A DNA stretch of 57,011 nucleotides from Cloacibacillus sp. (GTDB lineage: Bacteria > Synergistota > Synergistia > Synergistales > Synergistaceae): positions 1 through 57,011 of the forward strand of contig JAVVPF010000020.1 of NCBI GenBank assembly GCA_036655895.1, in the 5' to 3' direction. Both the position numbers and the translations under genes were made by a program. Position 1 is the stretch's first letter; the number at the start of each line of letters is the position of its first letter. Below are positions 33,171 through 38,400 of the stretch, piece by piece. The notes below the pieces were generated by a model. That model did no database searches. It was not told the DNA's origin and was given only the letters and a program-made list of their open reading frames with translations.

Positions 33171-33199
33171 TTGCCAATCCGGCAAAGAACCTATAGAAT
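33171..33199 (+). promoter_or_regulatory. Promoter of the cysE leader
   Basis: TTGCCA (33171-33176) and TAGAAT (33194-33199) are 17 bp apart. Start of transcription would be at about 33206-33207, the leader ATG itself. TTGCC-AATCC-GGCAA (33171-33185) is an inverted repeat over the -35 and may bind a regulator. Confidence 0.6.
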
Positions 33200-33206
33200 G
33201 TAAGCC

Positions 33207-33332
33207 ATGAAAAATACGACGATCTTCCCAACCGACAATAAATCATCCTGTTGTTGCGGCGCCGCTGCGATCTCAATGGCGCGCCTCATGCCGCGCGCGT
33301 ATACTACACGTTCGGGGGGCTGCATCGCATAG
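33207..33332 (+). CDS. Cysteine-codon leader peptide upstream of cysE
   Basis: This 41-codon ORF reads MKNTTIFPTDNKSSCCCGAA..., with three consecutive Cys codons (TGT TGT TGC at 33249-33257) and a fourth at codon 39. No Shine-Dalgarno site precedes the ATG, but the ATG coincides with the predicted transcription start, so it may be translated leaderlessly. A rho-independent terminator lies 28 nt after its stop and cysE begins 99 nt after. The peptide is probably not functional as a protein. Ribosome stalling at the Cys codons would report low Cys-tRNA. The ORF is not recognised from any database by me. Confidence 0.65.
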   Translation: MKNTTIFPTDNKSSCCCGAAAISMARLMPRAYTTRSGGCIA

Positions 33333-33360
33333 GCGCGGAGCAGACGATATACTAAAAAGC

Positions 33361-33393
33361 AAAAGGCCCGCCCTGAAAAGGCGGGCCTTTTTT
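33361..33393 (+). terminator. Attenuator terminator upstream of cysE
   Basis: AAAAGGCCCGCC (33361-33372) pairs with GGCGGGCCTTTT (33380-33391) around a 7-nt loop, followed by more T's. It stands before cysE with only the short leader ORF upstream, so it acts within the cysE leader. Confidence 0.9.
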
Positions 33394-33431
33394 AATAAAG
33401 TTAAAAAATCATATTCTCAGGGGGAAACGCA

Positions 33432-34187
33432 ATGAATTTTTTTAGATATGTGGCAAGTGATTATAAGGCGGCGCGCCGCAACGACCCGGCCATTCCCGAC
33501 GGCCTTCGCGGATTTCTAGAAGTCATACTCTGCACGCCGGGGTTTCTTGCCATCACCTTTCACAGGATATTCCATGTCATGCACGTAAAACTCCACATCC
33601 CGGTGCTTCCGCGTTTTCTTTCCCTATTCGTGCGCTGGTGGACGGGCATCGAGATACACCCCGCGGCCTCCATAAGTGAAGGCTTCTTCATCGACCACGG
33701 CGCCGGCGTAGTAATCGGAGAGACGGCGGAGGTTGGCAAAAACGTCACGCTCTATCAGGGCGTCACGCTCGGCGGCACCGGCAACGAAAAAAGCCACAAG
33801 CGTCATCCAACGCTGGGAGACAATGTTTTTGTCGGAAGCGGCGCTAAGATACTCGGCCCCATCACGATAGGTTCAAATTCACGCATAGGCGCAAACAGCG
33901 TCGTCCTTAAAAACGTCCCGGAAAACGCGACGGTGACGGGAATGAGGGCGAGGATAATAAAAGTGGACGGGCGTCCTGTAGCCGCCGCCTCGTCGGGGCA
34001 CAGCCAGGAGGAACTTTTGATGCGAATGCTGCGCCTGGAAGAGGAGCTTTATTACCTTAAAAACGAATTTAAACGCTGCCGCGGCGACATTGTCATTGAA
34101 ACGCGCGCAGCCGCCGACAACGTCGAAGTTGAAATAGAACATCGCCATTCCGCGCGAGCTTCGGAGGAAAGTTCTGATATATCTTAA
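33432..34187 (+). CDS. cysE: Serine O-acetyltransferase
   Basis: The 251-residue protein is an EpsC/CysE-type enzyme: an N-terminal helical part (RYVASDYKAARRNDPA), then a left-handed beta-helix of hexapeptide repeats with GIEIHPAA, FFIDHGAGVVIGETAEVG (catalytic His-Asp region), TLGGTG, KRHPTLGDNVFVGSGAKILG and ANSVVLKNVP. It makes O-acetylserine from serine and acetyl-CoA, the first step of cysteine synthesis. A charged helical tail of about 60 residues (EELLMRMLRLEEELYYL) extends beyond the core and may form a coiled coil. GGGGGA lies upstream of the ATG. No cysK follows. Expression is probably set by the upstream attenuator. Confidence 0.94.
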   Translation: MNFFRYVASDYKAARRNDPAIPDGLRGFLEVILCTPGFLAITFHRIFHVMHVKLHIPVLPRFLSLFVRWWTGIEIHPAASISEGFFIDHGAGVVIGETAEVGKNVTLYQGVTLGGTGNEKSHKRHPTLGDNVFVGSGAKILGPITIGSNSRIGANSVVLKNVPENATVTGMRARIIKVDGRPVAAASSGHSQEELLMRMLRLEEELYYLKNEFKRCRGDIVIETRAAADNVEVEIEHRHSARASEESSDIS

Positions 34188-36340: not shown

Positions 36341-37975
36341 TTAGCTGTTCGTTTGCTGGGCTACGAGATTTTCCGCTCTGTAGAGCTGACGCAGCTTCGG
36401 CTTTTCTATCTTGCCGGTGGGGTTGCGCGGAATGTCGGCGAAGATTATCTGGCGCGGGCGCTTGTAGCGCGGAAGTTCCGCGCAGAATTTTTCTATGTCT
36501 GCCTCGGTGCATAGAACATTTGGCTTCAGCTCTATTATGGCGGCCGCTATCTCGCCCAAACGATGGTCGGGCAGTCCGATGACGGCCGCGTCCTTCACGT
36601 TGGGGTTCGCGCGCAGGAAATCTTCCACCTGCACTGGGTAGATGTTTTCGCCGCCGCTTATGATGACGTCCTTTTTGCGGTCAACGAGGTAGATGAAGCC
36701 CTCTTCGTCCTGACGCGCCATGTCGCCGGTGGAGAGCCAGCCGTTGTGGAGTATCTCGTCCGTCGCTTCCGGATTTTTATAATAGCAGGTCATGACGCCG
36801 GGGCCTTTGACCGCCAGTTCACCCACCATGCCGCGCGGGACGACGGAGCCGTCCTCTTCAAGTATCTTCACGCGCCAGCCGAAGCCGGGCACGCCTATTG
36901 CGCCGACCTTTTCGATGTTGCCGACGCCGAGGTGCACGCAGCCTGGGCCGGTCGATTCTGAGAGGCCGTAGTTCGTGTCGTATTTATGCTTAGGGAATAT
37001 CTTGCGCCATCTGTTGATGAGGCTGGGCGGCACGGGCTGCGCGCCTATGTGCATCAGCCGCCAGCGCGACAGGTCGTAGCCGGCTATGTTGATGCGGCCG
37101 TCGTCTATCGCGTCTAGGATGTCCTGCACCCACGGCACGAGCAGCCAGACGATGGTGCATTTTTCCTCCGCCGCGGTTTTTATTATTGCGGCCGGGTCGG
37201 TGCCTTTGAGCAGGATGCCCTTGCTGCCCGAGATGAGGCTGCCGAACCAGTGCATTTTTGCGCCTGTGTGGTAGAGCGGCGGGATGCAGAGGAAAACGTC
37301 GTCGTGCTTTTGCCCGTGGTGGGCCTGTTCCGTCTTCGCCGCGTGCATGAGGCTCTCGTGGTTGTGCAGTATCGCTTTGGGAAAGCCTGTGGTGCCTGAG
37401 GAAAAATATATCGCGGCGTCGTCGCTGTCCGAAAGCAGTATGCGCGGCGCGAAACTCGAGAGATTGGCCGTCAGGTGCAGATAGTTTTCGGCAAAGCGCG
37501 GGCAGCCGTCGCCTATGTAGAAAATGAGTTTGACGCGCGGGATGTCGCCGTAAATGTCCTCCACGCGTCCGATGAACTCTGGGCCGAAGAATAGCGCGTC
37601 CACGTCCGCCAGCTCAAGGCAGTATTTTATTTCGTCGGCGGTGTAGCGGAAGTTGAGCGGCACTGCGAGCGCCCCGGTCTTGAGTATCCCGAAGTAGAGC
37701 GGCAGCCATTCGAGGCTGTTCATCATGAGGATGGCCACCTTGTCGCCCTTTTGGATGCCGCGCGAAAGCAGCAGGTTGGCGCAGCGGTTCGCCTTTTCGT
37801 CAAAGACGCTCCACGTTATCTCGCGCCTGTAGCTCTCCGTGGGGCTTGACTCGATAAGTTCGTATTCCTTCCACGTGACGCGGCGAAGCTCCTTCACCTC
37901 TGGATTGATCTCGACAAGGGCCGTCTCATGGCAGAATTCGTGCGCGTTTCTTTCAAGCAGTTCAGTGATTGGCAT
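36341..37975 (-). CDS. AMP-forming acyl-CoA synthetase, T-box controlled
   Basis: The 544-residue adenylate-forming enzyme has the phosphate loop YFSSGTTGFPKAILHNH (about 191-207), the adenine motif YGLSESTGPG near 328, GWLSTGDMARQDEEG near 415 and the hinge DRKKDVIISGGENIYPVQVE near 432-451. The C-terminal lysine region is PRNPTGKIEKPKLR. It activates a carboxylic acid to its CoA thioester with ATP. The family includes fatty-acid, 4-coumarate and aryl-acid ligases. The upstream tyrosine-type T-box suggests an aromatic acid such as 4-hydroxyphenylacetate as substrate; this is inference. AGGAGG precedes the ATG. Confidence 0.9.
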   Translation of the reverse strand: MPITELLERNAHEFCHETALVEINPEVKELRRVTWKEYELIESSPTESYRREITWSVFDEKANRCANLLLSRGIQKGDKVAILMMNSLEWLPLYFGILKTGALAVPLNFRYTADEIKYCLELADVDALFFGPEFIGRVEDIYGDIPRVKLIFYIGDGCPRFAENYLHLTANLSSFAPRILLSDSDDAAIYFSSGTTGFPKAILHNHESLMHAAKTEQAHHGQKHDDVFLCIPPLYHTGAKMHWFGSLISGSKGILLKGTDPAAIIKTAAEEKCTIVWLLVPWVQDILDAIDDGRINIAGYDLSRWRLMHIGAQPVPPSLINRWRKIFPKHKYDTNYGLSESTGPGCVHLGVGNIEKVGAIGVPGFGWRVKILEEDGSVVPRGMVGELAVKGPGVMTCYYKNPEATDEILHNGWLSTGDMARQDEEGFIYLVDRKKDVIISGGENIYPVQVEDFLRANPNVKDAAVIGLPDHRLGEIAAAIIELKPNVLCTEADIEKFCAELPRYKRPRQIIFADIPRNPTGKIEKPKLRQLYRAENLVAQQTNS

Positions 37976-38018: not shown

Positions 38019-38054
38019 AAAAATCCCCGCCCTCCTGATTAACAGAGGACGGGG
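38019..38054 (-). terminator. T-box terminator
   Basis: On the minus strand CCCCGTCCTC (38045-38054) pairs with GAGGGCGGGG (about 38025-38034, one mismatch), followed by ATTTTTATAT. It competes with the T-box antiterminator. Confidence 0.88.
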
Positions 38055-38400
38055 AATATTGACCCGTGGTACCACCTCAGTTTGGCGTCTCCTCGCGGAG
38101 CGCGCCCTCGTCGGGTACGCGGCGAAAGAATGCCATATACCCTGTCCGATATAACGGTCGAACCCGTCGCAGCCTACTTAGGAAGCCGTTTATCATATAT
38201 GCCCTCCACAAAGCCTGTACTTGCCCCTGCTGGACGACCTCTTATGATCAATGACCCAATATCCCTTTTGGTGCGCCGCTCCTGGAATGTATTTCGGTTC
38301 GTTCGTCCGCCGCCTCGCACCATCCGCCGGCTCTCTGAAGGACTGAAAACGCGCCTACTTCTTTCCCGTCATTGCGTTTGCCTCTCTATGTGAGACATTA
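38019..38400 (-). promoter_or_regulatory. T-box riboswitch leader with UAC (Tyr) specifier
   Basis: On the minus strand the leader shows all expected parts: AAAGAAGTAG near the base of stem I, CAGAGAGCCGG and GGTGCGAG (38316-38337, AG bulge and distal loop), the specifier TAC at 38289-38291 in the context CGAAA-TAC-ATTC, then GGAGC, and the antiterminator T-box AGGTGGTACCACGGG at 38063-38077. Its UGGU can pair with the ACCA end of uncharged tRNA-Tyr. A terminator follows. It reads tRNA-Tyr charging and turns on the downstream acyl-CoA synthetase when uncharged tRNA-Tyr accumulates. Confidence 0.92.

Follow-up and report, generated by a model that had tools for sequence, protein, structure and literature searches.

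In the window, as we refer to the whole 57,011-nucleotide stretch of Cloacibacillus sp. DNA that was analyzed, cysE is preceded by a short open reading frame (ORF) with a run of cysteine codons and by an intrinsic terminator. Serine acetyltransferase carries out the first step of cysteine synthesis, and the question raised by this locus is whether translation of the short ORF could report on cysteine supply and control transcription of the gene. A previous reading, made from the sequence alone, had proposed a cysteine-sensing attenuator for cysE, and the conserved Cys run, the terminator, and the competing helices described below support that proposal. Our analysis indicates that the element is very probably a ribosome-mediated transcription attenuator, through which charged tRNA-Cys would be sensed and serine acetyltransferase controlled, and that its leader is probably leaderless.

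The cysE leader of the window and its predicted switch

The leader ORF encodes MKNTTIFPTDNKSSCCCGAAAISMARLMPRAYTTRSGGCIA, with cysteines at codons 15-17, and is followed by the terminator and then by cysE (Table 1), all of them where the sequence-only reading had placed them. As in attenuators of the trp/his type, a run of codons for the end product thus lies directly upstream of a gene of the same pathway, with an intrinsic terminator in between. Across approximately 437 kb of the host genome and three extra loci, no other short ORF beginning with ATG and containing CCC was followed by a terminator. The terminator hairpin (33361-33391) has a folding energy of -21.7 kcal/mol and is followed by a T run; one prediction placed the hairpin on the other strand. 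The transcription start of the leader was predicted on or beside the A of the ATG at 33207. The encoded CysE scored above the cut-off of the EpsC equivalog (209.9 bits; cut-off 150) and just below that of TIGR01172 cysE (205.9; cut-off 210.65). It is the sole clear CysE of the host genome (G000, 2.9 Mb in 160 contigs), and its closest relatives, found in Synergistes and Synergistaceae records, share at most 77% identity with it.

Table 1. Positions of the promoter, leader, RNA segments, terminator, and target gene in the window
Feature	Position	Strand	Details
Sigma-70-type promoter	33171..33199	+	TTGCCA 33171-33176, 17-nt spacer, TAGAAT 33194-33199
Leader ORF	33207..33332	+	41 codons; predicted leaderless; 7 nt from the end of the -10 box to the ATG; no Shine-Dalgarno (SD) site
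Three consecutive Cys codons	33249..33257	+	TGT TGT TGC; proposed sensor; run conserved in Synergistota
Segment A	33258..33263	+	GGCGCC, with the Cys codons; predicted to pair with D if no ribosome covers A (fold of 33249-33360)
Segment B	33266..33293	+	Contains 33278-33286 (GGCGCGCCT)
Segment C	33313..33329	+	Pairs with B; B:C covariation in relatives
Leader stop codon	33330..33332	+	TAG, within conserved CATA(G/A) loop between segments C and D
Segment D	33332..33342	+	GGCGCGGAGCA; antiterminator strand at the conserved position; predicted to pair with E (-15.0 kcal/mol)
Intrinsic terminator	33361..33393	+	E 33361-33374, F 33380-33391, T run
cysE	33432..34187	+	Serine O-acetyltransferase (CysE/EpsC type), from profile scores; proposed regulated gene

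In the mechanism that we propose, transcription would start at or beside the leader ATG and translation would proceed without an SD site, as suggested by the spacing from the promoter. With enough Cys-tRNA, the ribosome would reach the stop codon and cover segment D, and if the leader were left untranslated D would pair with A. Whether D was covered or paired with A, E would remain free, the E:F terminator would form, and cysE would not be transcribed. Under a shortage of Cys-tRNA, stalling would occur at the Cys codons; since A begins at or just after these codons, a ribosome stalled there would cover it. Segment D (or, in the host genome, 33278-33286) would then pair with E before F is made, so that the terminator would fail and cysE would be transcribed. 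The scheme thus predicts a stalled ribosome, an effect of cysteine supply, and the position of the transcript 5' end. Because the window stop codon adjoins D, termination would leave the ribosome sitting directly on D, as happens in trp. The leaders of its seven closest relatives (L086-L092) likewise stop in the CATA(G/A) loop adjoining D, and in most other families the stop codon is placed in the A:B loop.

The window copy of the element has a longer leader ORF and approximately 40 extra nucleotides. It was recognized neither by covariance model R1, built on the element of the wider phylum, nor by R2, built on that of Synergistaceae. Because the extra nucleotides break the match to the models, the window copy was judged by folding and shuffles, and its helices rest on single-sequence folding. 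In the free state, the predicted fold has A:D pairing around a B:C helix. In the stalled state, E is predicted to pair either with 33278-33286 (-14.3 kcal/mol) or with 33332-33342 at the energy given in Table 1, and the choice between them hinges on 1-2 nt of the ribosome edge. The sequence-only reading had noted that 33278-33286 is complementary to the left terminator arm at 8 of 9 bases, and we confirmed this complementarity. As an antiterminator, that segment is one of two candidate strands, but the position conserved in relatives is 33332-33342. Sequestering of the E arm in the window amounted to 5.4-8.0 kcal/mol with the ribosome stalled at Cys, 1.0 with the ribosome at the stop codon, and 1.4 in the free RNA. 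Stall-dependent sequestering exceeded that of shuffled sequences with p values of 0.074, 0.02, and 0.013 for the three Cys codons (800 shuffles).

Conservation and start of the leader in Synergistota

Genome searches identified CysE in 131 of 188 Synergistota genomes, and the sequences divided into an orthologous group and a distant one (approximately 45% identity). A short sense ORF with CCC was found upstream of cysE at 46 of 56 Synergistota loci, spanning nine families. No such ORF was seen on the antisense strand (0/56), in cysE upstream regions of other phyla (0/68), or upstream of the distant CysE-like paralogues (0/11). The nominal Fisher p value for this association is 1e-24, which is indicative only because the sequences are related. 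Almost without exception, upstream regions of the orthologues carry short sense ORFs with 2-5 consecutive Cys codons, and most loci without CCC have CC, C-x-CC, or CIC instead. Specifically, the frame at two loci of family f9, L132 and L136, is CICRWI(L/I)S, with CIC in place of CCC and an uncertain start codon; the element in this family may be in decay or start in an unusual way. The leader was absent from three loci that do have a clear orthologue of cysE, namely L107 (genome of 1.5 Mb) and two loci from outside the order, L131 and L134. In L120, L125, and L137 (families f10 and f6/g30), a further small Cys-rich ORF (e.g., VESGCGCCSFKSSEKLEIKLSKEEKN), preceded by a good SD, occupies the interval from the attenuator to cysE. 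At L212 (G061:C4:169640-169715), an additional and strong copy of the attenuator precedes a cysE that is cut off near residue 80 and followed by transposase-like sequence.

The leaders fall into two groups by their apparent mode of initiation. The leaderless-type group comprises 27 leaders, 25 of them from Synergistaceae (the window included) and two from family f6. In all 27, a -10 box (TANAAT or TATCAT) ends 6-9 nt before the ATG, mostly 6-7 nt and 9 nt in L110, and TTGC(CA) or a near match stands at -35, with a spacer of 16-17 nt where measured. Leaders of other families have an SD, and their start typically lies 27-56 nt from the -10 box; no promoter was found for two f9 leaders and for some f7 leaders. 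Among 369 ORFs of at least 100 codons in approximately 437 kb of the host genome, none had a promoter at 5-8 nt under the strict criterion and one did under the medium criterion, with no peak at that spacing. These observations suggest that the leader ORF of the window and of other Synergistaceae is probably translated leaderless, with transcription starting at its ATG.

The attenuator could also be real while its transcript starts further upstream, in which case the promoter spacing would be a coincidence. Several relatives carry in-frame upstream start codons, and the 5' end is a predicted one. However, we consider a longer transcript unlikely, since the arrangement TTGC, 16/17 nt, TANAAT, 6-9 nt, ATG is kept in every leader of the group, the interval between promoter and ATG contains no SD-like sequence in any of the 27, and ordinary host genes show no comparable spacing.

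On a CysE tree, the leaderless state, which we take as the probable one for this group, maps to a single well-supported clade; the SD-led family f2 falls within it, so that two changes are needed. Since homologous copies use either a leaderless or an SD start, they provide a natural experiment on how the start of a leader bears on the coupling of translation and transcription. Of all parts of the system, the one most worth testing is this change among lineages between a leaderless and an SD-led start within a single homologous attenuator. The number of codons ahead of the Cys run also differs, with 11-16 in leaderless leaders (e.g., L001 and L086-L092) versus 7-12 in the SD-led leaders of other families. 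The longer stretch in the former perhaps reflects when the ribosome loads with respect to RNA polymerase.

Alternating helices in relatives

Sequences of relatives were aligned without structure and all column pairs were scanned blind. In 31 sequences, mostly from families other than Synergistaceae, the top three helices were B:C, A:B, and C:D, each of which excludes the next in turn. Their scores were 4.18, 3.52, and 3.23, against a maximum of 2.46 in 60 column permutations. In alignment A2, 88% of the A:B and C:D positions and 95% of those of B:C were paired, compared with approximately 30-59% when the partners were slid, and both sides had changed in 15 (A:B and C:D) and 22 (B:C) cells. Covariation in this alignment exceeded that of 500 of 500 shuffles, a control (a) that overstates significance for related sequences. 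Among 20 Synergistaceae sequences, B:C was recovered with a score barely over the permutation maximum (3.14 versus 3.01). The top helix of that scan (columns 20:78), stronger than B:C, falls in a gapped and probably misaligned zone and was set aside.

The pairing of D with the terminator arm was analyzed across species: D segments paired more strongly with E of their own leader than with terminator arms swapped between species (p 0.0006 and 0/5000). With A masked as by a stalled ribosome, sequestering of E rose by a mean of 2.1 kcal/mol, compared with 0.3 for shuffles. A three-state comparison (ribosome at the Cys codons, ribosome at the stop codon, no ribosome) gave 1.4 versus -0.7 for shuffles, with the states in the predicted order on average. 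Switch scores of single sequences were scattered, with 20 of 52 in the top 10% of shuffles and the wrong sign in some (e.g., L102, L129, and L139). The mutually exclusive, covarying helices that characterize trp/his-type attenuators are therefore found in the relatives, and in the window copy they are given by folding. The competing helices of the switch model in the sequence-only reading held up, but in relatives they form a multi-helix cascade of the trp/his type. A comparison of relatives, suggested together with that reading, finds the Cys codons, the terminator, and the competing helices all conserved upstream of cysE, as are the D:E pairing and the promoter-ATG spacing at the sequence level.

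Control could instead be exerted on translation or mRNA decay, with stalling exposing the ribosome site of cysE and the hairpin playing no part in the switch. Such a mode of action has been proposed for the leaderless polycysteine ORFs of mycobacteria, which are described as cysteine-responsive attenuators (cited in PMC9031893) without conserved terminators (PMC1262725). At the locus studied here, however, a strong intrinsic terminator with its T run stands between the ORF and cysE, and the cysE SD of the window (GGGGG at 33420-33424, approximately 7 nt 5' of the ATG) falls outside the alternative helices. Moreover, the D:E complementarity uses the terminator arm itself and is conserved. This makes control at the level of translation or decay improbable relative to transcription attenuation.

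It is more improbable still that the ORF encodes a small Cys-rich protein, for metal or thiol binding, with a terminator of its own and no relation to cysE control. Runs of CCCC and CCCCC in some relatives and the additional Cys-rich ORFs near cysE in L120, L125, and L137 would fit such a protein. On the other hand, outside the Cys run the peptide is variable in length (15-44 aa) and sequence, conservation past the run tracks the RNA helices, the ORF is always directly upstream of cysE, and the alternative helices covary. Finally, a single window might by luck combine a Cys triplet with an unrelated intergenic terminator, but conservation across nine families and covariation contradict chance, which we regard as a negligible explanation.

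Poly-Trp leaders and known attenuators

The attenuator of cysE is accompanied in this phylum by leaders of another codon identity. A search of the 188 genomes with R1 recovered the cysE copies of families outside Synergistaceae and also matched, weakly (E approximately 0.003), trpB leaders in two f7 genomes, whose ORFs end in CWWWT or WWWWT. The scaffold of these trpB leaders resembles that of the cysE element closely enough for the covariance model of the latter to match, and one of the two elements may be derived from the other. Weak R1 matches with E values of 0.005-0.05 within coding regions (e.g., L215, L216, L218, and L219) were read as chance. Leaders with WW or WWW were found upstream of trpB in about a dozen Synergistaceae loci, the host genome included. 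Across Synergistota, the loci with poly-Trp leaders ahead of trpB are L220, from the host, L213, L214, and L237-L250. As poly-Trp precedes trpB and poly-Cys precedes cysE, codon identity follows the product of the gene, as a sensing model requires. No poly-Cys leader was seen before cysS or cysK of the host genome, where cysK, in an awkward orientation, was inspected by eye only.

The host trpB leader, MRKLDYVTTSNRFGWWRSL, is preceded by TTGACA-16-TATTCT-7-ATG, a leaderless-type spacing (L220, G000:C3:39229-40374), unlike most trpB leaders of its relatives, in which an SD is present. A scan of approximately 437 kb for a promoter, 6-7 nt, an ATG, a short ORF, and a terminator returned the cysE leader and one other match, this trpB leader, which came from a locus fetched on purpose. 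It is possible, if doubtful, that leaderless initiation in Synergistaceae is largely reserved for amino-acid-sensing leaders, the start being part of the sensor rather than an accident. This reading draws on the predicted first-base starts of the cysE and host trpB leaders, which ordinary genes do not share, and on the SD-led starts of the homologous attenuator in other families. If it were correct, ribosome loading might be tied, for example, to the 5' end leaving RNA polymerase or to the availability of 70S ribosomes.

The trp and his leaders of gammaproteobacteria (RF00513 Trp_leader and RF00514 His_leader) likewise combine a peptide rich in the end product, alternating helices, and a terminator. 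The cysE element differs from them in its Cys codons, its target, its phylum, its predicted leaderless start, and the absence of an Rfam match. Specifically, none of the Rfam 15 families at the locus (Trp_leader, Thr_leader, T-box, and others) was above gathering, and the best sub-threshold matches corresponded to the terminator hairpin. The uORFC-8-2 motif upstream of cysS in Rhodobacterales is a predicted leader with Cys codons (codons 14-15) and ribosome-mediated attenuation (PMC8632094). Compared by description only, it resembles the cysE leader in its Cys codons and terminator, but it controls cysteinyl-tRNA synthetase in an alphaproteobacterial order and has two Cys codons and a two-stem model; the window element lies upstream of cysE instead.

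Leaderless polycysteine ORFs of mycobacteria have been shown to act as cysteine-responsive attenuators (Canestrari et al. 2020, as cited in PMC9031893 and PMC9094748). As described there, they share with the cysE leader contiguous Cys codons, a leaderless start (a predicted one for cysE), and an association with sulfur or cysteine operons. They differ in having no conserved terminator (PMC1262725) or competing helices, whereas the cysE leader belongs to Synergistota, has a terminator, and is predicted to switch transcription. Leaderless leader peptides that feed an intrinsic terminator are also known for trpL of Sinorhizobium meliloti (PMC7298713) and for leuL2, trpL1, and ilvL of Streptomyces lividans (PMC8079986), which differ from the cysE leader in amino acids and phyla. 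The leaderless start envisaged by the sequence-only reading thus agrees with the spacing kept in relatives and lacking from ordinary genes, but it is not unique to this group, given the examples from Sinorhizobium, Streptomyces, and mycobacteria.

We found no earlier report of a cysE attenuator of Synergistota in the open-access literature, and neither cysteine nor cysE comes up in the main text of an RNA-motif study of a Synergistetes genome (PMC6429828). Since Cys attenuators and leaderless leader peptides are known elsewhere, the kind of element is a known one and the Synergistota cysE element is an uncatalogued example. As a phylum-wide RNA family, it offers an account of how cysteine synthesis is probably controlled in Synergistota, and with it cysE joins the few genes for which Cys-codon attenuation is predicted. 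Elsewhere in the window, a T-box leader (38042-38381, reverse strand; RF00230, 95.8 bits) precedes a gene resembling those for acyl-CoA synthetases (36341-37975), which is unusual as a T-box target.
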